Assembly (NCBI RefSeq): GCF_011761235.1
Contig: NZ_JAAOYW010000002.1
Location: 248,001-312,000 of the forward strand
DNA length: 64,000 nt
Direction of reading: 5' to 3'
Source: Frigoribacterium faeni
GTDB lineage: Bacteria; Actinomycetota; Actinomycetes; Actinomycetales; Microbacteriaceae
Positions 10,974 to 58,255 of the stretch are shown here, one piece after another (the stretch's first letter is position 1; every line of letters starts with the position of its first letter). The notes under the pieces were generated by a model. It saw only the letters and a list, made by a program, of their open reading frames with translations. It searched no databases and was not told the origin of the DNA. The position numbers and the translations under genes were made by a program.

Positions 10974-11033
10974 GAACCCCGTTCCATTCAGGGAACCACC
11001 GAGCAACGGGGTTCGTTGAACGGAACGTGGTTC
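10974..11033. repeat. Nested palindrome, GAACC family, copy 1 (60 bp)
   Basis: Outer arms of 16 bp at 10974-10989 and 11018-11033 (14 of 16 paired) enclose, after 3-bp spacers, a 22-bp inner hairpin at 10993-11014 whose arms again begin GAACC and end GGTTC. It lies between the convergent response regulator and lipid kinase genes. A closely related copy in the opposite orientation is at 45380-45439. Confidence 0.85.
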
Positions 11034-11044
11034 ACAACGGGATC

Positions 11045-11110
11045 GCCGGGTGCCGGGTGCCGGGTGCCGGGCACCGGGAGCCGGACACCGGGCACCGGGT
11101 GCCGGGCACG
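11045..11110. repeat. GCCGGGT-type heptamer tract with inverted part
   Basis: Several consecutive GCCGGGT units are followed by inverted ACCGGGC-like units, so the whole tract can fold back on itself. It ends just after the stop of the lipid kinase gene and may act as its terminator. The units are imperfect. Confidence 0.7.
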
Positions 11111-11126
11111 GAGCCAGGCGCCGCCG

Positions 11127-12167
11127 CTACGCCCGGGGCACCCGCACGGTCAGCCCGCCCGGCTCGACCCAGGTGCGGAACCCGGTCGCGACGCCGAAGC
11201 CGTCGCCGTCGACCTCGATGTCCTCGGGGCTCTTCAGCGACACCTCGATCTGCTTCGCCTTGACGTAGCGCAGGGCCTCGTTCTCGGTGCCCGGCAGCTT
11301 GTCGGCGAAGGGCAGGCGGCGCACGACGCCGTTCTCCCAGAACACCTTGTAGAGGATGTGCGCCCAGCCGCGCACGCCCTTCGGGCGCAGCAGCAGGATG
11401 TCGAACAGGCCGTCGTCGATGGCCGCGTCGGGCAGCAGCACGATGTTGGCGGGCAGGGCGCCGCAGTTGCCGACGATGATCGTGTGGGCGCGCATGTCGC
11501 GCTGCTGGCCGCCGTCGATCCGGTAGCGGAAGACGAGCTGGTTCTCGTCGCGCAGCGTCGCGGCAAGGGCCTTGACGTAGGCGAGCCAGCCGACCTTCTT
11601 CTTGAGGTCGTCGTCGGTGTTCGCGAGCATCTTCGCGTCGATGCCGAGACCGGCCATGACGACGTAGACGTGCTCGCTGGTCGAGCCGTCCTCGCGGCGG
11701 ATCTCGAGCATGCCGAGGTCGATCTCCCGGTCCTCGCCGCCGAACGCGGTGTCGAGCGAGTTGTCGAGGTCCTCGAGGGTCAGCTTGAGGTTGCGGGCGA
11801 GCAGGTTGCCCGTGCCGCTGGGCAGCAGGGCGAGCGAGGCGCCGGAGTCGTGCACCGCCTCCGCCACCGCCCGCACGGTGCCGTCGCCGCCGGCCGCGAT
11901 GACCATCGTCGCCCCGGCGTCGAGCGCCTCGCGGGCGGGGCCCTGGCCCGCGTCGTCCTCGCTGGTCTCGAACCAGAGCGTCGTGCCCCAGCCGGAGGCG
12001 CCCTCGGCTCGGGCGACCGCGGCCTTGACGGCGTCGAGGTCCACCTTGATCGGGTTGTAGACGACGGCCGCGACGCGCGTGCCCGTGCCGGGGGCGCCGG
12101 TCGAGGAGGCGGCGGTCTCGTCGGCGCCGGACGTCGCGGAGGACGTCGGGTCGGTGTCTGTGCTCAC
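11127..12167 (-). CDS. Diacylglycerol kinase-like lipid kinase (DAGKc domain)
   Basis: 346 residues. The DAGKc fold starts near residue 30 with VAAVVYNPIKVDL and contains the nucleotide-binding GGDGTVRAVAEAV and the LPSGTGNLLARNL loop. The C-terminal beta-sandwich includes VGNCGALPANIVLLPDAAIDDG and ends VEVDGDGFGVATGF. This family phosphorylates diacylglycerol or related lipid alcohols at the cytoplasmic membrane face, feeding phosphatidic acid to phospholipid synthesis. GTG at 12167 is followed by an Asp/Thr/Ser-rich tail of about 28 residues that precedes the domain. It is separated from its neighbours on both sides by palindromic elements, so probably monocistronic. Confidence 0.92.
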   Translation of the reverse strand: MSTDTDPTSSATSGADETAASSTGAPGTGTRVAAVVYNPIKVDLDAVKAAVARAEGASGWGTTLWFETSEDDAGQGPAREALDAGATMVIAAGGDGTVRAVAEAVHDSGASLALLPSGTGNLLARNLKLTLEDLDNSLDTAFGGEDREIDLGMLEIRREDGSTSEHVYVVMAGLGIDAKMLANTDDDLKKKVGWLAYVKALAATLRDENQLVFRYRIDGGQQRDMRAHTIIVGNCGALPANIVLLPDAAIDDGLFDILLLRPKGVRGWAHILYKVFWENGVVRRLPFADKLPGTENEALRYVKAKQIEVSLKSPEDIEVDGDGFGVATGFRTWVEPGGLTVRVPRA

Positions 12168-12232
12168 CCGTCGATGATGGCACCGCGCCGCCGCGCACGG
12201 TCGGGCCCGCGGAGGACTGCGTTCTGTGCACA

Positions 12233-12325
12233 GTTCAGGGACCCGGCCGGGCTGGGTCCTGAGCCGTGCACGAGTCAGGAGCGCGCCTCCTGAGCCGTGC
12301 GGATCCAGGACTCGTGTTCCTGAAC
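12233..12325. repeat. Complex palindromic cluster built on TCAGGA/TCCTGA arms
   Basis: Outer GTTCAGG (12233-12239) and CCTGAAC (12319-12325) enclose a hairpin TCAGGGACCC/GGGTCCTGA, a second hairpin TCAGGAG/CTCCTGA, and GCACGAGTC pairing with GACTCGTG further right. CCTGAGCCGTGC occurs twice as a direct repeat. It lies between the start of the lipid kinase gene and the end of the anti-sigma gene, both on the minus strand. Confidence 0.7.
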
Positions 12326-12404
12326 GAGGAGAGGGGACGGGGCTCGGCGATCCGGGCGGGGCGGGAGCCGAGGAACGGCGGGGCGGGAGCCGAGGAGGGG
12401 CGGG

Positions 12405-13196
12405 TCAGGCCCCGAGGGAGGGCACCGTCGCCGTCGCGATGTCCGTGCCGTCCGCACCGCGCACCTCGACGGCGACGACGTGCTCGCGCAGCACCGCCGC
12501 GTTCATCCGGCAGTCGATCGTCACGTCGGTGCCGAGGAACGTGCCCGACTCGTGCTCGACGCCCGCGTCGTCGACGACGACGACCGAGAACGCGTCGCCG
12601 ACCGGCAGGCCGTCGACGCTGAGCACGGTCTCGGTGCCCCAGGTGTGGGCGACGAGGTCGCCGTCGACGGCGACGCCCGAGGGCTCCCCCGCGAAGGCCA
12701 CGTGCTCGACGGCGCCGAGCGTGCCGGGCGGACCGGCGACGGGGGCGTCGCGCACGGTCGTGGCGAGCACGCCGCCGCCGACCCCGACCGCGACGCAGGC
12801 GGCCGCGCCGGGCACGGCGAGCGCCGCACGCCGCGCACGGCGGGGGCGCAGGGGCACGAGGGGGGCGACCGGCGCGACGTCCGGCGCCGCCGCGACGCCC
12901 GACGCGACCGGCGCGCCCGACGCTGCGGGCGCCTCCTCGGCCCGACCCTCGCGGGCCACGGCGGACTCGACGCGGTCGCGCAGGTCGTCGCCGGCCACGG
13001 CGTCGTGCCAGGCGCCGACGGGCCGGAGGCGGGCCACGACCCCGCCCAGCGAGGCGATCTCGTCGTCGACGGTCGGGTCGACGGCGCGCAGCGCGTCGAG
13101 CTCGACGGCCTCGGCGGGCGACAGGTCGGAGGCCAGTGCGGCGGCGATCAGCTCGGCGCGGCGGTCGGCCGAGGTGTCGGGAGCAGGGTCGGTCAC
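12405..13196 (-). CDS. Anti-sigma factor, RskA-like
   Basis: 263 residues. The N-terminal ~85 residues form the cytoplasmic sigma-binding part (RAELIAAALASDLSPAEAVELDALRAVDP), a zinc-less anti-sigma helical domain. One transmembrane segment follows an Arg-rich stop (RPRRARRAALAVPGAAACVAVGVGGG, around residue 140-165), and the C-terminal ~95 residues are extracytoplasmic with an RskA-like beta fold (DGLPVGDAFSVVVVDDAGVEHESGTF). GTG at 13194-13196 overlaps the sigma stop, so the two are coupled. It is expected to hold the adjacent sigma factor at the membrane until a surface signal triggers proteolysis. Confidence 0.88.
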   Translation of the reverse strand: MTDPAPDTSADRRAELIAAALASDLSPAEAVELDALRAVDPTVDDEIASLGGVVARLRPVGAWHDAVAGDDLRDRVESAVAREGRAEEAPAASGAPVASGVAAAPDVAPVAPLVPLRPRRARRAALAVPGAAACVAVGVGGGVLATTVRDAPVAGPPGTLGAVEHVAFAGEPSGVAVDGDLVAHTWGTETVLSVDGLPVGDAFSVVVVDDAGVEHESGTFLGTDVTIDCRMNAAVLREHVVAVEVRGADGTDIATATVPSLGA

Positions 13197-13744
13197 GAGC
13201 GGTTCTCCCCGTCGTCGAGGTGGCTGCGGAGGGCGCGCAGGGCGTAGAAGCACCGCGTGCGGAGGGTGGCGACCGGGACGCCCGAGACGTCGGAGAACTC
13301 CTGGTAGCTGAGCCCGGTCAGGTGGACGGCGACGACGACCTCGCGGTGCTCGTCGCTGAGCCGTGCGAGGCCCTCGACGATGCCGAGCCGGTCGAGCGGG
13401 TCGGCGGCGGGCGCCGCCTGCTCGGGCGCCTGGTCGTCGGGGACGAGCTGCGGCGTGCGCTGCCGGGCGCGGTGCACGTCGAGCACGACGCGGCGCTCGA
13501 TGGCGAAGAGCCAGGTGCGCGCACCGCCGCGGGCGGGGTCGTACGAGGCGCGGGCACGCCAGGCGCGGAGGAACGTCTCCTGCACGCAGTCCTCGGCCAG
13601 GGCCCGGTCGCGGAGAGCGTTGACGGCGAACCCGAGCAGGGCCGAGCCGTGCTCGGCGAAGGCGGCGGACACGTCCAGGCCCGTCGTCGTCCCGCCCATG
13701 CGGCTCCCCTCGTACGTGTCGGGACGCGTCATCACGAGCGGCAT
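13193..13744 (-). CDS. ECF RNA polymerase sigma factor
   Basis: 183 residues. Region 2 runs from FAEHGSALLGFAVNAL through DCVQETFLRAWRARASYDP and RTWLFAIERRVVLDVHR; region 4 is GLARLSDEHREVVVAVHLTGLSYQEFSDVSGVPVATLRTRCFYAL. No region 3, as expected for ECF sigmas. Two starts are possible: ATG 13744 and ATG 13699, each preceded by the same GAGGGGAGCCG string, so the upstream 45 bp look like a local duplication. The longer one is listed. Translationally coupled to the anti-sigma gene. A promoter-like motif shared with the divergent CHRD/sortase operon suggests autoregulation and a surface regulon. Confidence 0.9.
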   Translation of the reverse strand: MPLVMTRPDTYEGSRMGGTTTGLDVSAAFAEHGSALLGFAVNALRDRALAEDCVQETFLRAWRARASYDPARGGARTWLFAIERRVVLDVHRARQRTPQLVPDDQAPEQAAPAADPLDRLGIVEGLARLSDEHREVVVAVHLTGLSYQEFSDVSGVPVATLRTRCFYALRALRSHLDDGENRS

Positions 13745-13790
13745 CCGGCTCCCCTCACCCTACGGACATCGAGACGGTCGCCTCACGGGG

Positions 13791-13818
13791 AGTACGCCGA
13801 GGAGGCGCCGGGCGTTCA
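13791..13818 (-). promoter_or_regulatory. Candidate ECF promoter for the sigma/anti-sigma operon
   Basis: Read on the minus strand, TGAACG (13818-13813), a 16-bp spacer and CGTACT (13796-13791), ending about 45 bp before the first start codon. The same TGAACG-N16-CGTA pattern faces the other way upstream of the CHRD gene. The spacer happens to contain the recurrent 12-mer CCGAGGAGGCGC. Confidence 0.55.
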
Positions 13819-13876
13819 TCCGGGACCGGTCCCGTCCGCCGCCCCGCACCTCCTCGGATCTTTCTCGGCTCGGCGG

Positions 13877-13904
13877 TGAACGCGCGGGCCCCGTCGCTCG
13901 TAAG
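13877..13904 (+). promoter_or_regulatory. Candidate ECF promoter for the CHRD/sortase operon
   Basis: TGAACG (13877-13882), a 16-bp spacer and CGTAAG (13899-13904). It matches the motif on the divergent sigma gene in sequence and spacing. A 12-bp palindrome CGACACGTGTCG follows at 13911-13922. Confidence 0.55.
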
Positions 13905-13958
13905 GCCCTCCGACACGTGTCGTCCGCCTGGGCGGCACCCACGAGAGGCAGAGGAAGC

Positions 13959-14690
13959 ATGACGATGAAGCGTTCCGTCCGACACCTGACCATCGGAGGC
14001 GCGGCCGCGGCCGCCGCCACCCTGATCGTGGCCTCGCCCGCCGCGGCCGAGACCACCGTGCCCGAGCCGAGCTCGTTCACCAGCGCGTTCACCGTGATGG
14101 CGACGCCGGACCAGGTGATCAACAACGACGGCGTGGCCGTCGCCGGCGAGCCCGGAGCCACCGGCACCTTCGACTTCCGGATCAACTCGGACACCGAGGT
14201 GATCTGCTACGACATCACCCTCACGGGCGTCACGGGCGACTACCAGAGCCCCGCCAAGACGGCGACGCACATCCACCAGGCCGCCGCGGGCAAGGCCGGG
14301 CCGCCGCGCATCGCGTTCCCGAACCCGACCGACGCCGACGGCGACGGCGTGCGCGAGGCGAGCGGCTGCCTGCAGGGGCCCTTCACCACCGGCGTCACGA
14401 GCGACGCGGGCACCGACACCGGCGAGGGCTTCACCCTCGCGCAGATCGAGGCCGACCCGGCCGGCTTCACCGGCGACTCGCACACCGCGGCCTTCGCCGC
14501 GGGCGTGGTGCGCGGCCAGCTGACCCAGGTGCCGGTCGGCGGCGTCGACACCGGTGCGGGCGGGGCGGCCTCGGCCGTGTCGTCGACCTCGGACGGCGGT
14601 GCCCTCGTCGGCGCCGCGGCCGTCGGCGGGCTCGTGCTCGCGGGCGCGACCGGGCTCGTGCTGCGTCGTCGGGCCGCCGCGCGGGCATGA
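13959..14690 (+). CDS. Secreted CHRD-domain protein with C-terminal membrane anchor
   Basis: 243 residues. The signal peptide is residues 1-29 (MTMKRSVRHLTIGGAAAAAA, cleavage near SPAAAET). A CHRD (chordin-like) domain occupies ~40-190, with FDFRINSDTEVICYDITLTG and ATHIHQAAAGKAGPP, the conserved histidine-containing turn. A Ser/Gly-rich linker leads to a hydrophobic helix (GALVGAAAVGGLVLAGATGL) and the positive tail RRRAAARA, i.e. a cell-envelope anchor without a clear LPxTG motif. The start codon follows GAGGAAGC. The stop overlaps the start of the sortase gene (ATGA), so this is the probable partner of that sortase. Confidence 0.85.
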   Translation: MTMKRSVRHLTIGGAAAAAATLIVASPAAAETTVPEPSSFTSAFTVMATPDQVINNDGVAVAGEPGATGTFDFRINSDTEVICYDITLTGVTGDYQSPAKTATHIHQAAAGKAGPPRIAFPNPTDADGDGVREASGCLQGPFTTGVTSDAGTDTGEGFTLAQIEADPAGFTGDSHTAAFAAGVVRGQLTQVPVGGVDTGAGGAASAVSSTSDGGALVGAAAVGGLVLAGATGLVLRRRAAARA

Positions 14691-15385
14691 GCCTGCGGGC
14701 GGGGTCGGCTCGGGCCGGCGTGGGCCGGGCTCGCGTGGCTCGGGCTCCGGTGGCTCGGGCCGGCGCCGGGCTGGCGGTCGCGCTGACCGCTGCCCTGCTG
14801 CTGACGGGGTGCACGTCGGGCACGACGGGGCCGACGCCGACGGGCGGCGTGGGTGCGGGGGCGGAGCCGAGCGCTCCTGCCTCGGTGCCCGCGCCTCCTG
14901 CGACGTCCTCGCCCGAGCCGGCCGCGCCCGTGGCGGCGGTCGGTGCTGAGCCCGCCCGGGTCTCGGTGCCGGCCATCGACCTGGACGAGCCGCTGATCGG
15001 CCTCGGCATCGCCGAGGGCGGCGCCATGGAGGTGCCCGTCGACGCCGACGAGGTGGGCTGGTTCACGGGAGGCGGTCGTCCGGGAGGGCGTGGCCCGACC
15101 GTGATCGCCGCCCACGTCGACTCGACGACGGGGCCGGCGGTGTTCTTCCGGCTGTCGGAGCTCGTGCCCGGCGACGAGGTCACGGTCACGACCGTCGAGG
15201 GCACGGCCGTGCGCTACGTGGTCGACGAGGTCGTCGACGTGCCCAAGGCCGAGTTCCCGACCGCCCGGGTCTTCGGCGCCCGCCCGGGCGACGAGCTGCG
15301 CCTGATCACGTGCGGCGGGGTCTTCGACCCGGGCTCCGGCCACTACGACGAGAACCGGGTCGTCTTCGCGTCGCCCGCCGGGTGA
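14687..15385 (+). CDS. Class F sortase
   Basis: 232 residues. A signal/lipobox-like N-terminus (LAVALTAALLLTGCTSG, cysteine at about residue 42) is followed by a Pro/Ala/Ser-rich spacer, then the sortase beta-barrel from VSVPAIDLDEPLIGLGI. The catalytic triad can be read: His in VIAAHVDSTTG, Cys in LRLITCGGVFD and Arg in YDENRVVFAS. Class F sortases are transpeptidases that attach or trim surface proteins in actinobacteria. The gene overlaps the CHRD gene by four bases. The nearby LAFTG adhesin gene converges on it, so it may also be a substrate. The lipoprotein-like cysteine is unusual for a sortase. Confidence 0.88.
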   Translation: MSLRAGSARAGVGRARVARAPVARAGAGLAVALTAALLLTGCTSGTTGPTPTGGVGAGAEPSAPASVPAPPATSSPEPAAPVAAVGAEPARVSVPAIDLDEPLIGLGIAEGGAMEVPVDADEVGWFTGGGRPGGRGPTVIAAHVDSTTGPAVFFRLSELVPGDEVTVTTVEGTAVRYVVDEVVDVPKAEFPTARVFGARPGDELRLITCGGVFDPGSGHYDENRVVFASPAG

Positions 15386-15397
15386 GCCCGCAAGGCC

Positions 15398-15465
15398 GAG
15401 GGCGGGTCCCCCGGTGCGAGGGCGGGTCGCGATCGACCCGCCCTCGGCCCGGAGGACCCGCCCTC
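15398..15465. repeat. Nested palindrome, GAGGGCGGGTC family, copy 1 (68 bp)
   Basis: Outer 17-bp arms (15398-15414 and 15449-15465, one mismatch), 3-bp spacers, and an inner hairpin GAGGGCGGGTCG-CGAT-CGACCCGCCCTC at 15418-15445. It lies between the convergent sortase and adhesin genes. Copies 2 and 3 are at 28828 and 29360 with identical dimensions. Confidence 0.92.
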
Positions 15466-15494
15466 GGCGGATCGGCGGCGCGGCGGCCGTGGGG

Positions 15495-17186
15495 TCAGCG
15501 GCGGCGTGCCTGACGGTGCGCCGCGACCACGAGGCCGGTGCCGACCAGGGCGAACAGCAGCGCGATCAGCGCCGGCGCCAGGGGCTCGTCACCCGTGAAG
15601 GCGAGCGACGAGTCGTCGTCGGAGCGGTCGCCCTGACGAGCGGCCGCGGGGGCCGCGGACGCCTGCGTGGTCGGCGCGACGGTGGTCCCGGCGGGCGTCG
15701 TCGCGGAGGGCGTCGTCGCGGAGGGCGTCGTCGTCACCGGCGTGGTGCCGGCGGGCACCGTCACGGGCGTCGTGTCGGCGGGGACCGTCGTCACCGGGGG
15801 CGTGGTGGCCGGCGGCGTCGTGACGGGGGGCGTCGTCTCCGGGGGCGTGACCACCGGCGGGTTGTCGGCGGGCAGCGTCGGGGGCGTGGTCACGGGGGGC
15901 GTGGTCTCCGGCGGCGTCTCCACCGGCGGCGTGGTCACGGGCGGGGTCGTCTCCGGCGGCGTTACGACCGGGGGCGTGGTCTCGGGGGGCGTGGTGACGG
16001 GGGGCGTGGTGACCGGGGGCGTGACCTCGGTGCCGTCCGCCTCGCCGCCGGCGCTGGCCTGACGGGTGACCGACTGGGCGGGGTACGTCAGGGGCGCGCC
16101 GCCGGCCGTCCGCGTGAGCACCGTCACGGCGCTGTTGCTGAAGCTCTGCGCAGCGCCCGTGCCGGTCGCGGCCGCGAGGTCGACGGGGGCGATCAGGCGG
16201 TAGAAGTGGCTGCTCGCGGCGACGGGCCACGTGACCGTGACCTTGTCCGGAGCACAGGTGACCGAGCCCGCGGGCAGCGTCAGCGCCTTCGAGGTGTTCG
16301 GGACGTACAGCCCGGCGGCGTCGGCCTGTCGGTCCTGGAAGCTCAGCGCGTCGCAGGCGAAGGTCCACGTCTGGCCGGCGGGCCGGGTGTCGGTCGTCGT
16401 GGCCGTCGCGAACGGGCCGACGGGGGTGTCGATGCGGTACTCGAGGGCGCGCTGCGGGTTCACACGGCCCTGGTCGGAGCGGGTGAAGACCCCGTACTTC
16501 GAGGCGTTGAGGTGGCTGCCCACCGGGCCCCGGGGCGTGATCTCCGTCGTGAAGGCCTCGCCGTCCAGCACCTGCGAGGTGAAGGGGGTGGTGACGCCCG
16601 ACGGGGTCGTGGCCGCGTCGAACGACGACTCGATGTAGGCCGAGCCGCTGACGTTCGAGTGCGTCTCGACGAAGCCGGTGAAGGTGACGACCAGGCGGTA
16701 GCTCGCGGGCGTGGTGCCCGACGCCGGCGTGGTCACGACGACGGCGTTCGCGACGACCTCGTCGCTGGCCGTGTCGATCACCGGGAACGTCTGCGGCAGG
16801 TCCTTCAGGCGCGGGCTCAGCTGCACGGTGAAGCTGTCGCCCGCGACCGTGCCGGCCGGCACGGTGAAGTCGAGCGTCGTCTTGACCTGCGCGCCCTGCT
16901 CCGGGGTGGTGGGGCTGACGACGATGTCCGTGACGGCGCTGGGCATGTTCTGGCCGGCGCGCGGCGACACCGCGGTCGAGTCGCCCGTGACGGGGCCGGC
17001 GGCGGACGCCGGGGCCGCGACGCCGAGGGCGAGGCCCCCGGTGGCGAGCGCCAGGGCGACGGCCGCGGCGAGGCCCGCACGGCGACGAGGCCGGTGCAGG
17101 GACGAGGAGGCGGCGGGCGCCTCCTGCAGGGAGGTCAGGGCAGGCTGGACGGGCGGATCGGCGACGATCCGGGGGTTTCTGGGCAT
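15495..17186 (-). CDS. Large LAFTG-anchored surface adhesin-like protein with Thr/Pro repeats
   Basis: 563 residues. MPRNPRIV at 17186 starts a long YSIRK-less signal region, with a hydrophobic core GLAAAVALALATGGLALGVA cleaved near ASAAG. Residues ~80-365 look like two Ig-like adhesin domains similar to the SDR/fibrinogen-binding type (DFTVPAGTVAGDSFTVQLSP; ASYRLVVTFTGFVETHSNVSG). Residues ~375-500 are a cell-wall spanning Thr/Pro tract of TPPVTTPPE-like units. The C-terminus is a sorting signal: LAFTG, a hydrophobic helix (LAPALIALLFALVGTGLVVA) and the tail HRQARRR. LAxTG motifs are usually read by class E sortases, yet the neighbour is class F. A longer reading from 17384 would run through the promoter region and is rejected. 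Confidence 0.85.
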   Translation of the reverse strand: MPRNPRIVADPPVQPALTSLQEAPAASSSLHRPRRRAGLAAAVALALATGGLALGVAAPASAAGPVTGDSTAVSPRAGQNMPSAVTDIVVSPTTPEQGAQVKTTLDFTVPAGTVAGDSFTVQLSPRLKDLPQTFPVIDTASDEVVANAVVVTTPASGTTPASYRLVVTFTGFVETHSNVSGSAYIESSFDAATTPSGVTTPFTSQVLDGEAFTTEITPRGPVGSHLNASKYGVFTRSDQGRVNPQRALEYRIDTPVGPFATATTTDTRPAGQTWTFACDALSFQDRQADAAGLYVPNTSKALTLPAGSVTCAPDKVTVTWPVAASSHFYRLIAPVDLAAATGTGAAQSFSNSAVTVLTRTAGGAPLTYPAQSVTRQASAGGEADGTEVTPPVTTPPVTTPPETTPPVVTPPETTPPVTTPPVETPPETTPPVTTPPTLPADNPPVVTPPETTPPVTTPPATTPPVTTVPADTTPVTVPAGTTPVTTTPSATTPSATTPAGTTVAPTTQASAAPAAARQGDRSDDDSSLAFTGDEPLAPALIALLFALVGTGLVVAAHRQARRR

Positions 17187-17438
17187 TCGGGTGCTCTCTG
17201 TCGGGGGCCCGCTCGGGTGGGGGCGACGGCGCGACGAGCCACGGTGTCGCCGGTGGGTGGCCGACGAGGTCGTTCGGGTGGGGCTCGGCGCGGACGATGC
17301 CGCGGGACGTTGAAATCTAACCCCCCGGACGGGGGTCCCGGCACGTCCGGCCTCGATGCTCACCCGTATCGCGTACGAATCCACCCGTGGCGGGTGAGGC
17401 CGACGTGGCGGAGGATGAGAGGCGCGGAGGGGCGGGGA

Positions 17439-18011: not shown

Positions 18012-18036
18012 GCGGCGAGGGTAGCGCCCGCCCCCG

Positions 18037-19569: not shown

Positions 19570-19604
19570 GTCCGAGACGGGGCGCCCGAGCGACCGTCCT
19601 GCCG

Positions 19605-28827: not shown

Positions 28828-28895
28828 GAGGGCGGGTCTTCCGGCTCGAGGGCGGGTCGTCCGCGACCCGCCCTCGGCCCGGAACACCCGCCCTC
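28828..28895. repeat. Nested palindrome, GAGGGCGGGTC family, copy 2 (68 bp)
   Basis: Outer arms at 28828 and 28895 (10 outermost bp perfect), inner hairpin GAGGGCGGGTCG-TCCG-CGACCCGCCCTC at 28848-28875. It lies between the convergent membrane-protein and arsenate reductase genes. Confidence 0.92.
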
Positions 28896-29359: not shown

Positions 29360-29427
29360 GAGGGCGGGTCTTCCGGCTCGAGGGCGGGTCGGCGTCGACC
29401 CGCCCTCGGCCCGGAAGACCCGCCCTC
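29360..29427. repeat. Nested palindrome, GAGGGCGGGTC family, copy 3 (68 bp)
   Basis: Perfect 17-bp outer arms GAGGGCGGGTCTTCCGG (29360-29376) and CCGGAAGACCCGCCCTC (29411-29427), 3-bp spacers, inner hairpin at 29380-29407 (12-4-12). It lies between arsC and crcB, 465 bp after copy 2 ends. This is the most regular copy. Confidence 0.95.
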
Positions 29428-32379: not shown

Positions 32380-32441
32380 GACACCGCCGAGTGGACGGAA
32401 CACCGCGAAAGTGGGCGGTGTCTCGTCCACTCGGCGGTGTC
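32380..32441. repeat. Nested palindrome, GACACCGCC type (62 bp)
   Basis: Outer 17-bp perfect arms GACACCGCCGAGTGGAC (32380-32396) and GTCCACTCGGCGGTGTC (32425-32441), 3-bp spacers, and an inner 22-bp hairpin ACACCGC-N8-GCGGTGT (32400-32421) repeating the outer arm's end. Same geometry as the other families but unrelated sequence. It lies between convergent genes and overlaps the last bases of the HxlR gene. Confidence 0.9.
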
Positions 32442-45221: not shown

Positions 45222-45222
45222 G

Positions 45223-45294
45223 TGCCCCTGGAGGGACTCGAACCCCCAACCCTTTCCTTAGGACGGAACTGCTCTTCCATTGAGCTACAGAGGC
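45223..45294 (-). tRNA. tRNA-Arg(CCT)
   Basis: 72 nt. Acceptor stem GCCTCTG/CAGGGGC (one G-T pair), D-arm GCTC-AATGGAA-GAGC, anticodon loop GTCCTAA with anticodon CCT (reads AGG), T-arm GGGGG-TTCGAGT-CCCTC, discriminator A; CCA is not encoded. The anticodon stem has one unpaired end (G-A). The 3' half is duplicated at 39672-39708. Confidence 0.93.
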
Positions 45295-45379: not shown

Positions 45380-45439
45380 GAACCACGTTCCGTTCAAAGA
45401 ACCCCGTTGCTTGGTGGTTCTCAGAACGGAACGTGGTTC
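45380..45439. repeat. Nested palindrome, GAACC family, copy 2 (60 bp)
   Basis: Perfect 16-bp outer arms GAACCACGTTCCGTTC (45380-45395) and GAACGGAACGTGGTTC (45424-45439), 3-bp spacers, inner 22-bp hairpin 45399-45420 (GAACCCCG...GGTGGTTC). Reverse-complement relative of 10974-11033. It lies between the tRNA-Arg promoter side and the end of the HNH gene. Confidence 0.93.
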
Positions 45440-49516: not shown

Positions 49517-49548
49517 GAGGCCCCGACACCAGCTGGTGTCGGGGCCTC
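49517..49548. terminator. Perfect 32-bp palindrome after serC
   Basis: GAGGCCCCGACACCAGC continues into its exact reverse complement with no loop bases apart from the centre. It ends serC and may also serve the opposing DUF3027 gene. Confidence 0.85.
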
Positions 49549-49605
49549 TCGCACAGTGCCGTCACGCGACCGTCAGCCGAGGAGGCGCGGGTCGCGTGAC
49601 GCAGG

Positions 49606-51023: not shown

Positions 51024-51063
51024 ACGCAGCACCGAGCTGCTCACCACCAGGAGGCCAGGCCCC

Positions 51064-52917
51064 ATGTCCAGTGCACTCGACCTCGCGGGCGTGCTCCGCT
51101 CCTCCGCGCCCGACGACCTCGTCCGGCGGCTGTCCTCGAGGCTGCTGCGCGCCTCCTCGGTCGACGACGCGTTCGACCTCGCCGACACCCTGCTCGACCC
51201 GTCGTCGGTGCGCGACGCCCTGTCTCACCTCGACCGCACCGAGCTGCTCGTGCTGCACGCGGCCCGCACCCCGGGCGACCTCGACGCCCTCGCCGGGCGC
51301 GTCGACGCCGTCTTCGAGATCGGCCGGGGCGCGCTCGCCCTCGCGGTCGACCACCTCGTCGAGCTGTTCCTCGTCGTCCGTCAGGGCGACGGCCCGGCCG
51401 CGAGCGTCAGCACCCTCGACGGGGTCGCCGAGCGCCTCGACGACGACCCGACCCTGTCGCCCGGCCGCCTCGGCGCCGAGCACCCGCCCGTCGTGCTGGA
51501 GGCCGTCGCCGACGTCGACCGCGACGCGACCGACGCCCGATCGGCCGAGCGCCTCTACGCCGTCGTGATCGAGGTCGCCGAGATCCTCCGCGCCCTCGAC
51601 CGCTCCCCGGCCCGCGAGCTCGCCAAGGGCGGCCTGGCGCTGCCCGAGGTGCGACGGCTCGCCGAGGCCGCCCGCCTCGACGTCGACGACGTCCCCGCCG
51701 TCGTGGGCATCGCCTCCCGCGCCGGCCTCGCGGCCGCGGGCCCCGACGGCGTGGCGACCACGCAGGACGCGGCGGCCTGGCTCGCGTCCTCGTGGCCCGA
51801 CCGCTGGGAGTCGCTCACCCGCGCGTGGCTCGCCTCGCTGCCCGCCGAGATCCTGGCGGTGCTGCACGAGCGCGTCGAGACGTCGTGGGGCGAGCCGCTG
51901 TCGGAGTACGCCTGCTGGGCGTACCCGGCGGGCCGCGCGTGGCTGCCCGAGCGGCTCGCGGCCTTCGCCCGCGCCGCCGAGCTGCTGGGCCTCACGAGCG
52001 GGCAGGCCCCCACCCGGGCCGCCGTCGCCCTGCTGCGCGAGGGGCCGGAGGCGGCGCGCACCAGGGTCGCCGAGCTGCTGCCCGACGCCATCGAGCAGGT
52101 GTACCTGCAGCACGACCTCACCGTGGTCGCACCCGGTCCGCTGGCCCCGGCGCTGGACGCCCGCCTCCGGGTCATCGCCGACGTCGAGAGCGCGGGGCTC
52201 GCCGCCACCTACCGCATCACCGAGGGCGGCATCCAGCGTGCGCTGACCGCCGGCGAGACGGCGGACAGCCTCCGGTCGTTCCTCGACGGCATCAGCCTCA
52301 CGGGCGTGCCGCAGCCGCTCGACTACCTGCTGCAGCAGTCCGCCGAGCGCCACGGCCGGTACCGGGTCGAGCGCGTCGTCGGCGGCGCCGACCTGCCCGC
52401 CGGCGCCGTGACGGTCGTCAGCTCCGACGAGCGGACGAGCGTCGACACCCTCGAGGTCGACCACGCCCTGGCTCCCCTCGCCCTGCAGCGCGTCGACGCG
52501 CAGCGCGTGGCGACGACCTTCGACCGCGACACCGTCTTCTGGGCGCTGAGCGACGAGCGCTACCCCGTGGTCGTCGTCGACGGCGACGGCGAGACGGCTC
52601 CCCCGGCTCGCCGCCGCCTGCACCGGCCCGTGCCGGTGCCGCCGCGCGACGCCGTGCGCGACATGGTCGAGCGCCTGACGGCGGGCACCGAGGCCAGCAC
52701 CGAGACGACCGACCGCGCGTGGATCACCCGCCAGCTCGACGCCGCGGTGAAGGGCCGCCTCACGGTGACGATCGCGATCGCCATGCCCGACGGCAGCACG
52801 AGCCACCTCGAGATGGAGCCGACCGGCGTCGGCGGCGGCCGCGTGCGCGGCCGCGACAAGAAGTCCGACGTCGAGCGCACGCTGCCGCTCTCGCACGTCG
52901 TCTCGGTGTCGAGCTAG
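51064..52917 (+). CDS. Helicase-associated domain protein (XPB partner)
   Basis: 617 residues. The family, encoded next to XPB helicases in mycobacteria and relatives, carries a helicase C-terminal-like / XPB_Ssl2 domain rather than a motor. Characteristic parts: LRSSAPDDLVRRLSSRLLRASSVDDAF, LDRTELLVLHAARTPGDLD, and the C-terminal YLQHDLTVVAPGPLAPALDARLRVIADVESAG, GVPQPLDYLLQQSAERHGRYRV. It contains no Walker A. ATG 51064 after AGGAGGCC. It is 98 bp from the XPB gene on the same strand, suggesting a common role in DNA repair or transcription. Confidence 0.88.
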   Translation: MSSALDLAGVLRSSAPDDLVRRLSSRLLRASSVDDAFDLADTLLDPSSVRDALSHLDRTELLVLHAARTPGDLDALAGRVDAVFEIGRGALALAVDHLVELFLVVRQGDGPAASVSTLDGVAERLDDDPTLSPGRLGAEHPPVVLEAVADVDRDATDARSAERLYAVVIEVAEILRALDRSPARELAKGGLALPEVRRLAEAARLDVDDVPAVVGIASRAGLAAAGPDGVATTQDAAAWLASSWPDRWESLTRAWLASLPAEILAVLHERVETSWGEPLSEYACWAYPAGRAWLPERLAAFARAAELLGLTSGQAPTRAAVALLREGPEAARTRVAELLPDAIEQVYLQHDLTVVAPGPLAPALDARLRVIADVESAGLAATYRITEGGIQRALTAGETADSLRSFLDGISLTGVPQPLDYLLQQSAERHGRYRVERVVGGADLPAGAVTVVSSDERTSVDTLEVDHALAPLALQRVDAQRVATTFDRDTVFWALSDERYPVVVVDGDGETAPPARRRLHRPVPVPPRDAVRDMVERLTAGTEASTETTDRAWITRQLDAAVKGRLTVTIAIAMPDGSTSHLEMEPTGVGGGRVRGRDKKSDVERTLPLSHVVSVSS

Positions 52918-53014
52918 GCGCCGACCCTCACGGCCGCCCCGGGTGCGCCCCTCGGGGGACGCCGGGGGCGGACACCGGCCGTCCCCAGGCGGGCCGCGCC
53001 TAGACTCGACCCTC

Positions 53015-54649
53015 ATGACCGGCCCCCTGATCGTGCAGAGCGACCGCACCGTCCTGCTCGAGGTGGCGCACCCCCAGGCGGAGGACGCTCGTCACGACCT
53101 GAGCGTGTTCGCCGAGCTGGAACGCGCGCCCGAGCACGTGCACACCTACCGCATCACGCGCCTCGGCCTCTGGAACGCGCGCGCCGCGGGCCACACCGCC
53201 GAGGACATGCTCGCCACGCTCGAGAAGTACAGCAAGTTCCCGGTGCCGCAGAGCGTCACGGTCGACGTGGCCGAGACGGTGGCGCGCTACGGCCGCATCG
53301 TCATCGAACGCGACGGCGACGCCCTCGTGCTGCGCGGCACCGACGACGCCGTGCTGCGCGAGGTCACCCGCGTCAAGAAGATCGGCGAGCTGCTCGGCGT
53401 GCGCCGCAGCGACACCGTGTGGGAGCTGCTGCCCTGGGCCCGCGGCGAGATCAAGCAGCAGCTGGTCAAGCTCGGCTGGCCCGCCGAGGACCACGCCGGC
53501 TACACCCCCGGCACCCCGCACGCGATCGAGCTCGACCAGACCGACTGGCAGCTGCGGGGCTACCAGCAGAAGGCGATCGACGAGTTCTTCGAGGGCGGCT
53601 CGGGCGTCGTGGTGCTGCCCTGCGGCGCCGGCAAGACCCTCGTGGGCGCGGGCGCGATGGCGGCCGCCGGCACGACGACGCTCATCCTCGTCACGAACAC
53701 CGTCAGCGCGCGGCAGTGGCGCGACGAGCTGCTGCGCCGCACCTCCCTGACGGAGGACGAGATCGGCGAGTACTCGGGCTCGGTGAAGGAGGTCAAGCCG
53801 GTCACGATCGCGACGTACCAGATCCTCACCGCGCGGCGTGCGGGCAAGTACACGCACCTGTCGCTGCTCGACGCGCTCGACTGGGGCCTCGTGGTCTACG
53901 ACGAGGTCCACCTGCTGCCGGCCCCGGTCTTCAAGCTGACGGCCGAGCTGCAGGCCCGCCGCCGGCTCGGCCTCACCGCGACGCTCGTCCGCGAGGACGG
54001 CCGCGAGGGCGACGTCTTCAGCCTGATCGGCCCCAAGCGGTTCGACGCTCCCTGGAAGGAGATCGAGGCACAGGGCTACATCTCGCCCGCGAGCTGCTTC
54101 GAGGTGCGCGTCGACCTGCCGCAGCAGGACCGGCTCGAGTACGCCGCCGCCCCTGACGACGAGCGCTACCGCCTCGCCGCGACGGCCCCCGCCAAGCTCG
54201 ACGTCGTGCGCCACCTGGTCGACCGGCACGAGGGCGAGCAGATCCTCGTCATCGGCCAGTACCTCGACCAGCTCGACGAGCTGGCCGCCGTGCTCGACGC
54301 CCCGACGCTGACCGGCGCGACGCCTGTCGACGAGCGCGAGCGGCTGTTCCAGGCGTTCCGGTCGGGCGAGGTCAAGGTGCTGGTCGTCTCGAAGGTGGCC
54401 AACTTCTCGGTCGACCTGCCGGAGGCGACGGTCGCCATCCAGGTGAGCGGCTCGTTCGGCTCCCGGCAAGAAGAGGCCCAGCGGCTCGGACGCCTGCTGC
54501 GGCCGAAGAAGTCCGGCCTGCCCGCCTCCTTCTACACGCTGGTCAGCCGCGACACGGTCGACCAGGACTTCGCGCAGAACCGCCAGCGGTTCCTCGCCGA
54601 GCAGGGCTACAGCTACACGATCCTCGACTCCCCGGCGCTGGCGGCGTGA
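53015..54649 (+). CDS. XPB/Ssl2-type DEAD-like DNA helicase
   Basis: 544 residues. Superfamily 2 helicase homologous to XPB/ERCC3. After an N-terminal damage-recognition-like domain (~residues 1-170) come the motor motifs: Q-motif region LRGYQQKAIDEF, Walker A LPCGAGKTLVG, DEVH box VVYDEVHLLPA, motif III LTATLVREDG, and motifs V/VI VVSKVANFSVDLPEA ... FGSRQEEAQRLGRLLRPKK. Start ATG 53015. In archaea and bacteria XPB unwinds DNA in a repair context. It overlaps the next gene by four bases (GTGA). Confidence 0.94.
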   Translation: MTGPLIVQSDRTVLLEVAHPQAEDARHDLSVFAELERAPEHVHTYRITRLGLWNARAAGHTAEDMLATLEKYSKFPVPQSVTVDVAETVARYGRIVIERDGDALVLRGTDDAVLREVTRVKKIGELLGVRRSDTVWELLPWARGEIKQQLVKLGWPAEDHAGYTPGTPHAIELDQTDWQLRGYQQKAIDEFFEGGSGVVVLPCGAGKTLVGAGAMAAAGTTTLILVTNTVSARQWRDELLRRTSLTEDEIGEYSGSVKEVKPVTIATYQILTARRAGKYTHLSLLDALDWGLVVYDEVHLLPAPVFKLTAELQARRRLGLTATLVREDGREGDVFSLIGPKRFDAPWKEIEAQGYISPASCFEVRVDLPQQDRLEYAAAPDDERYRLAATAPAKLDVVRHLVDRHEGEQILVIGQYLDQLDELAAVLDAPTLTGATPVDERERLFQAFRSGEVKVLVVSKVANFSVDLPEATVAIQVSGSFGSRQEEAQRLGRLLRPKKSGLPASFYTLVSRDTVDQDFAQNRQRFLAEQGYSYTILDSPALAA

Positions 54650-55215
54650 GCGGGCCCGACCTCGGCCCGGGCGACGTCCCGCTCGGCGACGACGAGCTCT
54701 GGCGCGACGGGCTGCGCCGTGTGTTCCTGGCCGACCAGTCGCCGTGGGCGGCCTTCGGGCCCCTGGTCGCCTCCCTCGACCACGAGGCCGTGGAGTACCG
54801 GGGCCAGCGCTCCCGCACCGCCCCGTGGGACCCGACGGTCGTCGTGTCGGTCGAGCGCACCTACGAGGTGCAGGGCGGCCTGCACGCCGGCGCCAGCCTG
54901 AGCGTCGTCACGTGGACGCGCGACCCCGAGGTGCTCGAGCGCAGCGACCTGCTCGCGGGCTCCCCCGTGGTCGACCACCTGTACGCGGGCCTCAGCGCCG
55001 TGGCCGACCTGGACGACGCCGAGGAGGCGCGGGTCGTCACTGCGCCCGTCGAGCGGTTCCCGGGATGGGAGATCGCCCGCGCCTCCGGCTACACGGCCGT
55101 GCTCGAGCAGCGCGACGGCGTCGCCTTCACCCTCGCCGTGCCGGACGAGCTGCTCGAGCTGACGACCCGCATCGCCCTGGTGCCGAACACGGAGTGGGAC
55201 GACCCGACCGCGTAG
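54646..55215 (+). CDS. Hypothetical protein coupled to XPB
   Basis: 189 residues. GTG 54646 overlaps the XPB stop. An alpha-beta protein (DDELWRDGLRRVFLADQSPWAAFGPLVASLDHEAVEYRG; VVSVERTYEVQGGLHAGASLSVVTW) without recognised motifs, signal or helix. Overlap suggests a working relationship with the helicase. Confidence 0.78.
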   Translation: MSGPDLGPGDVPLGDDELWRDGLRRVFLADQSPWAAFGPLVASLDHEAVEYRGQRSRTAPWDPTVVVSVERTYEVQGGLHAGASLSVVTWTRDPEVLERSDLLAGSPVVDHLYAGLSAVADLDDAEEARVVTAPVERFPGWEIARASGYTAVLEQRDGVAFTLAVPDELLELTTRIALVPNTEWDDPTA

Positions 55216-55374
55216 TCCAGGCACCTGGGCCGGACGCTGCGCCCGGACGCCGGGCCCGGAAGCCGGGAACGGACGCTCGGGGTCAGCGAGCTGGCGGCGC
55301 GCACGCTGCCGACACGCGGCTGACGCACTCACGACTCACAGGGAACACCGAGGGCGCGGACAGATACTGGGGCC

Positions 55375-56067
55375 ATGAGCGACGGCCCCAAGATTCTCAT
55401 CGTCGATGACGAGCCCAACATCCGCGACCTGCTGACCACCAGCCTCCGGTTCGCCGGCTTCGCCGTGCGTGCGGTCGGCAACGGCGCCCAGGCGATCTCC
55501 GCCGTGCTCGAAGAAGAGCCCGACCTGATCATCCTCGACGTCATGCTGCCCGACATGAACGGCTTCGGCGTCACCAAGCGCCTGCGGTCGTCGGGCTACA
55601 CGTCGCCGATCCTGTTCCTCACCGCGAAGGACGACACGGAGGACAAGATCACCGGCCTCACCGTCGGCGGCGACGACTACGTGACGAAGCCCTTCAGCCT
55701 CGACGAGATCGTGGCCCGCATCAAGGCGATCCTCCGTCGCACCATGAACGAGGACGAGGACGCGATCATCCGCGCCGGCGAGCTCACCATGGACCAGGAC
55801 ACCCACGAGGTCACCATCGGCGAGACGGCCATCGAGCTCAGCCCCACCGAGTTCAAGCTGCTGCGCTACCTCATGCTCAACCCCAACCGGGTGCTGTCGA
55901 AGGCGCAGATCCTCGACCACGTGTGGGAGTACGACTTCAACGGCGACGCCGGCATCGTCGAGAGCTACATCTCGTACCTGCGCCGCAAGCTCGACCAGTT
56001 CTCGGCCGAGCCGATCATCCAGACGAAGCGCGGCTTCGGCTACATGCTCAAGGCCGCCAAGGCCTGA
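55375..56067 (+). CDS. OmpR/PhoB family response regulator
   Basis: 230 residues. Receiver: acidic pair VDDEPN, phosphoacceptor Asp in LIILDVMLPDMNG, and Lys in YVTKPFSLDEI. DNA-binding winged helix: ELSPTEFKLLRYLMLNPNRVLSKAQILDHVWEYDFNGDAGIVESYISYLRRKL, then TKRGFGYML. ATG 55375. Followed by its kinase gene; a strong hairpin lies between them. Confidence 0.95.
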   Translation: MSDGPKILIVDDEPNIRDLLTTSLRFAGFAVRAVGNGAQAISAVLEEEPDLIILDVMLPDMNGFGVTKRLRSSGYTSPILFLTAKDDTEDKITGLTVGGDDYVTKPFSLDEIVARIKAILRRTMNEDEDAIIRAGELTMDQDTHEVTIGETAIELSPTEFKLLRYLMLNPNRVLSKAQILDHVWEYDFNGDAGIVESYISYLRRKLDQFSAEPIIQTKRGFGYMLKAAKA

Positions 56068-56080
56068 CGCGGTACGAACC

Positions 56081-56120
56081 CCGGTGGCGCCCGGGAGCCT
56101 CGGCTCCCAGGCGCCACCGG
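56081..56120. terminator. Hairpin between response regulator and kinase genes
   Basis: CCGGTGGCGCC and GGCGCCACCGG pair, with an inner stem GGGAGCC/GGCTCCC and a two-base loop; a nearly perfect 40-nt fold. In an operon this probably reduces read-through into the kinase gene or stabilises the upstream mRNA. Confidence 0.75.
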
Positions 56121-56134
56121 TATGTTCGCTTCCC

Positions 56135-57877
56135 ATGCACGAACGCCTGTCGCAGTGGTGGAACGAGATCTCCATCCGAACCAAGATCACCGGGATCACG
56201 GTCACCCTGGTGACCCTCGGCCTGCTGGTCGCGGGGCTCGGCACGATGACGGTGCTGAGCACCTACCTCTACGGCCAGGTCGACCTGTCGCTCAAGTCGG
56301 CGGCCGAGACGTTCTCCGGCGCCTCGCAGAGCGCGACCAACGCCCAGTCGTGCACGGTCACCTTCGGCGCGACGAGCAGCAGCTTCGTGGCGCTGTTCCG
56401 TGAGGACGGCACGCGCATCTGCGACAACGCCGACGAGCTGCAGGGCGGCACCGGCCCCGACCTCTCGGCGGTCGACCTGCCGCGGGCGGCCGCCGCGGCC
56501 GAGCCGATGAGCGTCTACAACTCCGACCACGACCAGCAGTGGCGCATCTACGCCTTCGACAAGCCCCTGACCCAGCGCGACCAGGTGACGGGCGTCGTCG
56601 AGCAGATCGACGCGACCATCGTCACGGGCACGAACCTCGCCAGCACGAACGCCGTGATCGGCCGCTTCAGCGGCATCTTCCTGGGCTTCGGCGTCTCGGT
56701 CATCGTGCTCGGCGCCGCGCTGACGCGTCTGCTCGTCACGTCGACGTTCTCGCCGCTGCGCGACGTCGAGGCCACGGCGGCCCGGTTCGCCGACGGCGAC
56801 TTCAGCCAGCGCCTCGACTCGACGACGCCCAACACCGAGGTCGGCCGCCTCAACCGCTCGCTCAACACGATGCTCAGCCGCATCGACTCAGCCTTCGACG
56901 ACCGCTCGAAGACCATCGACCAGATGCGGCGCTTCGTCGGCGACGCCAGCCACGAGCTGCGCACGCCCCTCGTCAGCCTGCGCGGCTACGCCGAGCTCTA
57001 CCGGATGGGCGCGCTCACCAAACCGGAGGACGTCGCGCAGGCGATGGACCGCATCGAGAAGGAGGCGATCCGCATGGGCGTCCTCGTGCAGGACCTCCTC
57101 GCGCTCGCCCGTCTCGACGAGTCGAAGCCCCTGGAGCTCGGCCCGGTCGACCTGGTCGCCATCGCCCGCGACTCCGCCCTCGACACCATGGCCTCGAACC
57201 CCGACCGCGACATCGCCGTCGTCGTGCACGACCCGGTCGTCAGCGGCCAGGTCGTCGAGGCGCCGGCTCCCGAGGCACCGGTCGCGGCCGACGACGCCGC
57301 GGTCGCGCCGCCCGGGTCGACGGGCGCCATCTCGTTCGCCGGGGCGACCCTCGCCCGCCTCCGTGGGCTGCGGGCCCGGGCCGTGCGGGCCGGTGAGCCC
57401 GTCGACGACGCCGGGTCGGGCGACCAGGCCGGCCACGGGCCGCAGGCTCCCGCCGTGGTGCTCGGCGAGGAGAACAAGCTGCGCCAGGTGATCACCAACC
57501 TCATGGGCAACGCCATGCGCTTCACCGAGCACGACAGCCCCATCGAGCTCGCCGTGCAGTCCGACCCCGGTCGCGGCGTGGCCACGATCGACATCGTCGA
57601 CCACGGCGAGGGCATCCCGCCCCAGATCCGCGAGAAGATCTTCCAGCGCTTCTGGCGTGCCGACTCGTCGCGCACCCGCGACACGGGCGGCTCGGGTCTC
57701 GGACTCGCCATCGTGTCGGGGATCGTCTCGGCCCACGGCGGCAGCGTCGACGTGCTCGACACCCCGGGCGGCGGAGCCACGTTCCGCGTCGCGCTGCCCC
57801 TCTTCCCCGAGGCGGCCAGCGCGGCCGGGGCGCCCGACGTGGCGACCCCCGCGCCCGTGCCGACCCCCGCCTCCTAG
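56135..57877 (+). CDS. HAMP-domain sensor histidine kinase with long insertion
   Basis: 580 residues. TM1 (~19-41, GITVTLVTLGLLVAGLGTMTVL) and TM2 (~185-207, FLGFGVSVIVLGAALTRLL) frame an outer sensor domain with two Cys (AQSCTVTF, RICDNADE). HAMP (FSPLRDVEATAARFADGDF), then the H-box RFVGDASHELRTPLVSLRGYAELY. Between DHp and the catalytic domain lies an unusual ~75-residue Ala/Pro/Asp-rich insertion (APAPEAPVAADDAAVAPPGS ...). Catalytic: NLMGNAMRFTEHDSPI, DHGEGIPPQI, GGSGLGLAI. ATG 56135. Partner of the upstream OmpR-type regulator. Confidence 0.93.
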   Translation: MHERLSQWWNEISIRTKITGITVTLVTLGLLVAGLGTMTVLSTYLYGQVDLSLKSAAETFSGASQSATNAQSCTVTFGATSSSFVALFREDGTRICDNADELQGGTGPDLSAVDLPRAAAAAEPMSVYNSDHDQQWRIYAFDKPLTQRDQVTGVVEQIDATIVTGTNLASTNAVIGRFSGIFLGFGVSVIVLGAALTRLLVTSTFSPLRDVEATAARFADGDFSQRLDSTTPNTEVGRLNRSLNTMLSRIDSAFDDRSKTIDQMRRFVGDASHELRTPLVSLRGYAELYRMGALTKPEDVAQAMDRIEKEAIRMGVLVQDLLALARLDESKPLELGPVDLVAIARDSALDTMASNPDRDIAVVVHDPVVSGQVVEAPAPEAPVAADDAAVAPPGSTGAISFAGATLARLRGLRARAVRAGEPVDDAGSGDQAGHGPQAPAVVLGEENKLRQVITNLMGNAMRFTEHDSPIELAVQSDPGRGVATIDIVDHGEGIPPQIREKIFQRFWRADSSRTRDTGGSGLGLAIVSGIVSAHGGSVDVLDTPGGGATFRVALPLFPEAASAAGAPDVATPAPVPTPAS

Positions 57878-58255
57878 TCCCGGGCGCCGCACCACCTCGG
57901 CCCGAAGCCCCGACTCGTTCCGGTTCAGCTCTGCTCGGCCTCCGAATTTGAGAGCATTCGGCGACGCGGGAACGGCGGCTGCGGGGCTCCCAGGGAAGCC
58001 TCCGGCGAATTGCTCTCGTTCTCCGAGCCGGGGGCTCCGAGGCGGTGCGGCGGCGCCGCGGCCTCTGTCAGGGGCGCGCGCTCCGAGAACGAGAGCACCC
58101 CCGTCTCGGCGGACCCGCGCCTCCTCGGTTCGTACGTCGGTCGCGCGCGGGATGCTCTCAAATTGCGCCCGAGACCGGTGGCGGCGGGGACGCCGAAGGG
58201 CGGCTCCCCCGGAGGAGAGCCGCCCTTGCGGATGACGCGGTGGTGCAGTCGCGGA
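57878..58255. other. Gene-free stretch between histidine kinase and groEL
   Basis: 378 bp between convergent genes, almost entirely occupied by the 220-bp nested palindrome. A copy of the recurrent 16-mer ACCCGCGCCTCCTCGG (58113-58128) lies inside. No ORF is supported. Confidence 0.7.
57945..58164. repeat. 220-bp nested palindrome with AT-rich outer arms
   Basis: Outer arms AATTTGAGAGCAT (57945-57957) and ATGCTCTCAAATT (58152-58164) are perfect 13-bp inverses. Inner arms TGCTCTCGTTCTC (58011-58023) and GAGAACGAGAGCA (58085-58097) are also perfect 13-bp inverses, extended by CGAG/CTCC. The centre holds GGCGGCGCCGCGGCC. Inner and outer arms share GAGAGCA. Located between the convergent kinase and groEL genes. 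Confidence 0.85.

Follow-up and report, generated by a model that had tools for sequence, protein, structure and literature searches.

Between the genes of a 64,000-nucleotide stretch of Frigoribacterium faeni (the window: positions 248,001 to 312,000 of contig NZ_JAAOYW010000002.1, which is contig C2 of the 3.2-Mb genome called G000 here) lie nested palindromes in which a short word occurs four times, twice forward (F) and then twice reversed (R). The words differ between elements, and a reading made from the sequence only proposed that several families nevertheless share one geometry. Does that geometry exceed chance, what holds it while the sequence changes, and what might such elements do at the ends of genes?

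A fixed pitch of 19 or 20 bp

We have searched for the geometry with no sequence assumed, requiring four matching 8-mers in the order F-F-R-R, and leaving free both the spacing between like sites (d, 12-33) and the inner length (16-41). The stretches scanned were 464 kb of G000 (the window and the adjoining 400 kb), 200 kb each of G007 and G001, and 100 kb of G013. The 400 kb of G000 was taken blind, while the stretches of the other three were chosen for listed elements, which inflates the counts there. Among the intergenic matches of at least 30 of the 32 letters, 49 of 54 fell at d = 19 (33 matches) or d = 20 (16 matches), with the remaining five distributed over the other 20 values. By contrast, the coding matches (n = 25) were spread over d, with one at 19 and none at 20.

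The sequence-only reading was to be abandoned if the layout proved no commoner than in shuffled sequence. It is far commoner: the 464 kb of G000 contained 56 matches of any layout, while the three dinucleotide shuffles gave 4, 5 and 5. Scattered coding matches make up many of the 56, and the intergenic pile-up at d = 19 and 20 is the sharper test. In 100 kb of G002, a threshold of at least 29 letters gave intergenic candidates at d = 19 (two) and d = 20 (one). We regard the fixed geometry as established. The observation is confirmed, and is bigger than first stated: one geometry is common to families with different arms across the genome and the genus, and also in samples of other genera.

The six window elements from which the proposal arose were all found where they had been placed:

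10974..11033: B-type element, half-sites GAACCCCG / GAACCACC / CGGGGTTC / CGTGGTTC, d = 19, inner 22, outer arms paired 14/16, flanked by convergent genes 10109-10936 (+) and 11127-12167 (-)
15398..15465: A-type element, four copies of the GAGGGCGGGTC half-site (F F R R), d = 20, inner 28, outer arms paired 16/17, convergent genes
28828..28895: A-type element, d = 20, inner 28, outer arms paired 16/17, convergent genes
29360..29427: A-type element, d = 20, inner 28, perfect 17-bp outer arms (17/17), co-oriented genes
32380..32441: C-type element, half-sites ACACCGCC / ACACCGCG / GGCGGTGT / GGCGGTGT at 32381-32440, d = 19, inner 22, outer arms paired 17/17, convergent genes
45380..45439: B-type element, half-sites GAACCACG / GAACCCCG / GGTGGTTC / CGTGGTTC, d = 19, inner 22, outer arms paired 16/16

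All six carry four half-sites in the order F-F-R-R. The like half-sites are 20 bp apart in the GAGGGCGGGTC type and 19 bp apart in the GAACC and ACACCGCC types. The inner palindrome is of 28 bp (11-6-11, with arms paired 11/11) in the three GAGGGCGGGTC elements and of 22 bp (8-6-8) in the other three, where the inner arms pair at 6/8 (10974), 7/8 (32380) and 6/8 (45380) positions. The gap of exactly 3 bp described between outer arm and inner repeat needs qualification. The three bases are present, but in the GAGGGCGGGTC family they belong to a longer, looser word of 14 bp, GYCGAGGGCGGGTC, after which come 6 variable bases. The blind search at 30 letters recovered five of the six elements; that at 10974 is too degenerate, yet it matches the motif pattern introduced below without mismatch. 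The predicted RNA folds of the six have energies of -35 to -73 kcal/mol on either strand.

Most of the elements were said to lie between convergent genes, and five of the six do so by our own gene calls. For the 45380 element the call rests on a weak 42-aa left gene; the nearest feature on that side is tRNA-Arg 45222-45294 (-), and taking this as the neighbor reduces the count to four of six. A search of the window with Rfam at gathering scores returned just the tRNA. The range claimed for the elements extended to 58164, where we saw none; there is only an ordinary 11-10-11 hairpin at 58196-58227, after a gene (58256-59875, -) that looks like groEL from its C-terminal end.

Families within the genus and beyond

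The families had been called unrelated. Their arm sequences are indeed different, but the single motif RMACCVCS, in the same 19/22/19 layout, covers the GAACCACG type, the GACACCGCC type and also a GCACCCCG type found beyond the window. Because they share both motif and layout, common descent of these three types is plausible. G000 has 78 elements that match RMACCVCS four times at 19/22/19 with at most three mismatches, and none that match the reversed pattern. They can be typed by spacer as B (GAACCMCG-TTCCGTTC), C (ACACCGCC-GAGTGAAC), D (GCACCCCG-AAGTGGAC) and others. The A type is built from the 14-bp word with 6-bp gaps at all three joints; by inspection, its reversed half-site GACCCGCC differs from RMACCVCS at one base.

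With at most two mismatches, GAGGGCGGGTC-type arms occur 28 times forward and 28 times reversed in G000, corresponding to about 28 elements. The same pattern was found in 8 of 60 genomes including G000, with just 1-3 matches in G006, G051 and G053. The exact arm GAGGGCGGGTC-N9-GAGGGCGGGTC was present in 43 stretches of a species collection, 40 of them from three Frigoribacterium genomes and one each from Nocardia, Pedococcus and Streptomyces. B arms (GAACCNCG-N11-GAACCNC) were found in 16 of 16 genus genomes (once per strand in G002), with no match in the controls. An ACACCGC pattern with its second copy 20 bp on gave one match in each of 3 of the 16 genomes and none in G000, and was discarded; the real spacing is 19.

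Two sites on each side of the center is the usual arrangement, accounting for 58 of 69 A arrays and 49 of 60 B arrays. The other A arrays are 1+1 (four, including three of a G007 variant whose word is shorter), 2+1 (two, one cut by the end of its locus), 3+2 (two), 5+2, 1+2 and 2+3 (one each). Extra whole units on one side (3+2, 5+2, 2+3) unbalance the hairpin and keep the pitch. Composite C-B pairs recur, and identical or near-identical copies are found within one genome. Some copies are arrayed: D and B elements lie together at L195:3420-4371, with D copies about 220 bp apart and 10-bp tandem GCACCCCGAA copies preceding two of them, and a run of four ACACCCCG-type elements, one about every 171 bp, occupies 394415-394930 of the 464-kb stretch (G000:C2 ~642415-642990), none being present in the matching ACAM 257 gap.

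Across the family, the full B pattern (at most two mismatches) was found in 8 of 199 genomes and 4 of 85 genera. Stretches of G018 (280 kb), G031 (180 kb) and G064 (160 kb) gave nine intergenic matches of at least 30 letters, every one at d = 19 and with other words, among them TGGGCGTA, TCGTGGGG, GGGGTGCA, CGTAGGTG, TCCGGGCG, GCGCGGTA and TTTCGCCA; four of the nine come from stretches fetched after the genus had been chosen for an earlier match. The inner distance among the nine ranges from 22 to 31, while d is constant. Stretches chosen through B-pattern matches gave two matches at d = 19 in G069 and one in G124; in G142 there was nothing at d = 19, and the one 30-letter match was at d = 15. 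Combining the sampled genera outside Frigoribacterium, 12 of 13 matches of at least 30 letters are at d = 19. G021 (60 kb) gave one 29-letter match at d = 19. There were no intergenic matches at d = 19 or 20 in G016, G017, G022 and G029 (60-80 kb each). Twelve stretches were taken from other families in the order, two of them too short to use; the other ten, of 15.6-20 kb, contained no intergenic match of at least 30 letters and four of 29, one of which was at d = 19.

Orthologous loci separate the word from its spacers. In ten pairs of orthologous A elements the half-sites agree at 426/440 positions (0.968) and the 6-bp spacers at 59/120 (0.492). The corresponding values for A elements at different loci across species are 0.973 and 0.500, while eight A copies of G000 compared among themselves give 0.963 and 0.917. 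The 15398 element and its PhB116 orthologue are identical at 44/44 half-site bases, and another A orthologue keeps 42/44 half-site bases and 0/6 spacer pairs. The spacers of A-type orthologues thus keep nothing specific to the locus. Since they are no closer than those of non-orthologues, while copies within G000 are alike, either copies have been homogenized within each genome or elements have been replaced repeatedly, and the word has been held throughout. Elements that keep their sites and lose their spacers provide a natural experiment in concerted evolution.

The occupancy of these gaps also changes. Both the 28828 and 29360 gaps hold A elements in G001 and G008, with other spacers at 29360. 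G012 lacks both elements; at 29360 a degenerate first half-site remains, so that what might have been a clean empty site is instead a deletion with a remnant. Six pairwise alignments yielded no precise empty site in a relative, the intergenic DNA being too diverged to place an edge. Of 74 G000 elements compared, 32 have a matching gap in a relative and 19 of these have an element in at least one relative, a figure favored by the fact that many of the relatives' loci were fetched because they hold elements. One gap contains B and C elements in G000 and an A element in PhB116; in another, G000 has C, B, C, B, G008 has a GAACCGCG element and a D element, and G007 has one GAACCGCG element. At ACAM 257 locus L059, in the place of the G000 A element 462617, another palindrome, CCTGAATCGTGCACGAATCAGG, is present, and its word recurs outside it.

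Gene ends, stems and sites

The distribution of elements among gaps of at least 60 bp was analyzed with genes from a codon-usage caller of our own, without annotation and with RNA genes uncounted. Of 102 convergent gaps 23 contain elements, as do 16 of 289 tandem and 4 of 139 divergent ones, so that the enrichment between convergent genes is upheld. Convergent gaps hold 24 of 49 elements compared with 21.6% expected by length (p = 2.7e-5), and divergent gaps 4 of 49 compared with 24.5% (p = 0.007). Convergent gaps with an element (threshold at least 29 letters) seldom have another hairpin of 8 bp or more: 3 of 27, compared with 31 of 75 without (p = 0.004), even though the element gaps are longer. 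This scarcity is the main argument for work as a terminator or a 3'-end hairpin. In tandem gaps the mean best-arm excess over shuffles is 0.2 bp with elements and 1.6 bp without. Location and the lack of other hairpins together support a role at gene ends.

Could the elements be sites of a chromosome-organizing or repair protein, with gene ends merely the places where such sites do least harm? The low number in divergent gaps (4/49) fits plain promoter avoidance, and repetitive extragenic palindromic (REP) elements are similarly placed according to PMC3733652. Avoidance alone, however, does not predict that other hairpins should be scarce in convergent gaps that contain an element, and we find this explanation very improbable.

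The suggestion that the elements are bidirectional terminators gains support, because they stand in for other hairpins in convergent gaps. No T-run follows them. Transcription may terminate at the elements, to judge from their sequence and setting. The reading that we favor, tentatively and at somewhat less than an even chance, is that they are REP-like repeats serving as bidirectional 3'-end elements, whose pitch is probably set by a putative DNA-binding protein. They would form a superfamily of interspersed palindromic repeats of REP-like habit, without the REP-associated tyrosine transposase (RAYT) gene. In each element, sequence-specific DNA sites, 14 bp long in the A family, would follow one another every 19-20 bp, usually two to an arm, with the direction flipping at the center. 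The putative protein would read RMACCVCS in the B-E types and another motif in A. The symmetry of the array means that RNA polymerases arriving from the two genes would meet the sites in the same polarity, and the bound element together with a very stable transcript hairpin could end or bound transcription from both sides. Copying or gene conversion between elements would keep the copies within a genome alike.

A bolder form of this proposal would have protein-bound, direction-symmetric RNA polymerase stop elements in several genera of the Microbacteriaceae, replacing convergent hairpin terminators and read by a putative family of binding proteins of drifting specificity. The word would be repeated four times at the fixed 19-20 bp, and genera and families would be its dialects. 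We think this unlikely.

Might no protein be needed at all? The elements could be pure RNA hairpins, acting as bidirectional terminators or in 3'-end protection and spread by copying, with the half-site repeat a relic that no protein reads. The folds are very stable on both strands, the elements substitute for other hairpins in convergent gaps, the ordinary hairpins of the genus likewise lack T-runs, and pairing between spacers exceeds that of permuted sets. Yet a hairpin requires F1 to match R1 and F2 to match R2, and not F1 to match F2; F1 = F2 at 19-20 bp nevertheless recurs across families and in several genera, and the A-type half-sites persist while their spacers change. On this evidence pure hairpins seem unlikely, though not greatly so. 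In the D set, half-site variation follows the arm (F1-F2, p = 0.0045), while variation in the B set, described next, follows the stem. Both constraints, stem and site, seem to act.

A number of observations weigh against the protein-set 3'-end element that we favor. Half-site variation in the B set follows the stem (F1-R1, p = 0.0035; F2-R2, p = 0.012), with the cross pair F1-R2 at p = 0.0015. Left and right spacers match beyond permutation (p <= 0.001 in the A sets of 46 and 24 elements, the B set of 19 and the D set of 27, and p = 0.03 in the C set of 10, with 44 of 100 B-type elements, 34 'other' and 10 'CD', excluded), so that a hairpin is favored too. No T-run follows the elements: over 118 ends the mean T content is 0.12 against a background of 0.13, and one end of the 118 has four T in eight. 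The share of tandem gaps with another hairpin is alike with and without elements (26% and 27%). Half-site agreement is no higher in orthologues than in non-orthologues, which makes conservation a property of the family that copying alone could give. Two B-type elements have equal spacers in G000 and G004. Of the 32 G000 elements with a matched gap, 13 have no element in any relative. In the G142 matches and one listed G069 element the outer half-sites (e.g. GCACAACC) are unlike the inner ones, counting against strict identity of all four sites. Lastly, no partner protein was found.

Possible mobility, known systems and other repeats

A partner of the RAYT kind had been suggested, and the results do not bear it out: the Y1 transposase domain PF01797 was found in none of the 16 genus genomes, while controls were positive in 5 of 14. 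The rve transposase domain PF00665 was found in 4 of the 16 at E <= 0.001 (controls 6 of 14), and in none of G000, G004, G007, G008 and G012. Among 100 B-type and 70 A-type elements, target-site duplications of 2-10 bp were no commoner than in the control. The scanned stretches of G000, G007, G001, G002 and G013 and the extra loci showed no larger element with these arms at its ends; the unpaired arm matches there resemble chance, element edges or degenerate elements. Viral contigs had no match to two exact arm patterns (A and D), nor had plasmids to one A element used as query. Genes lying between two elements 1.1-1.2 kb apart were considered as candidate partners; three of these in G000 encode 299, 306 and 295 aa. 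The A-type ends read GYCGAGGG, without a GTAG or CGTC tag, and CGTC is present inside D-type spacers.

These negatives bear on the possibility that the elements are miniature mobile elements, two-site transposon terminal repeats abutted with almost no interior and moved in trans by a putative enzyme. At each of their inverted ends, IS21, Tn7, Mu and Tn402 carry at least two directly repeated transposase sites about 19-22 bp apart, which lends the idea some force, as do the variable inner distance at constant d among the nine matches in other genera, the identical or near-identical copies and repeated C-B composites, and the occupation of the same orthologous gap by different families. Unlike those ends, however, the elements described here have no interior, no target duplication and, in G000, no rve transposase. 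With the missing Y1 domain, the lack of any larger element in the stretches scanned, and the viral and plasmid results also against it, we judge mobility of this kind improbable. Another comparison is with integron attC and XerCD dif sites, which have an 11-6-11 core.

In habit, though without their transposase and with a fixed two-word arm, REP elements are the nearest known kind. REP elements, bacterial interspersed mosaic elements (BIMEs) and REP doublets forming hairpins (REPINs), with their RAYT transposases, are described in PMC3733652 and PMC3116915 as short intergenic palindromes in inverted pairs, with many copies, several families per genome, clusters and a preference for gene ends. 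The elements in G000 likewise comprise many intergenic palindromic copies in inverted pairs, as seen in the 78 RMACCVCS elements and the A-type arms. They differ in that no RAYT gene was found in the genus and that each arm has two copies of one word, at a pitch fixed at 19-20 bp. The DNA uptake sequence dialects of Neisseriaceae, as presented in PMC3630211, are alike in their short word, species dialects, terminator-associated inverted pairs and conservation within a genome. They differ in running to thousands of words, whereas G000 has about 100 elements, usually with four sites each and with several words per genome. The elements resemble intrinsic terminators in being stable, GC-rich hairpins at gene ends, judged from the folds of the six and their location, but have no T-run, a strict geometry and membership of repeat families.

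A literature search that covered few subscription journals found no account of these elements in Frigoribacterium or Microbacteriaceae. Sequence is the usual mark by which a repeat family is recognized; in these elements it differs between families, genomes and genera, and the geometry is what stays. That would point to a machine that measures 19-20 bp and is open to biochemical search. The elements also make a limited and testable collection for the study of gene ends, in bacteria whose gene-end hairpins carry no T-run.

Several other repeats were observed. The word CCGAGGAGGCGCGG is found all through the 464 kb, both within and between genes, and in the window at positions 49577, 55019 and 61913 (+) and 32301, 32326 and 58115 (-). 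Its form GGAGGCGCGG occurs 173 times in the 464 kb compared with 24 expected from a fifth-order model, and there are 183 copies of GAGGAGGCGC compared with 5 of its reversal. Words related to CCGAGGAGGCGCGG rank first or second among 10-mers in five of five Frigoribacterium samples, and are not among the 10-mers listed for G064, G031, G018, G016 and G017. Among 30 neighboring copies within 60 bp, 13 run + then - and one runs - then +. This pattern of orientation is like that of uptake sequences, and the word resembles the A half-site. The top words in the G018 and G016 samples are GTGGATGCCG (20 against 7.8) and GCGGCATCCG (29 against 4.7), both of which contain CGGCATCC. Within the window, tandem GCCGGGTGCC-like repeats at 11045-11109 follow the 10974 element, 15-bp tandem repeats lie within a called gene at 15633-16052, and a perfect, loopless 32-bp palindrome at 49517-49548 has convergent genes on either side.

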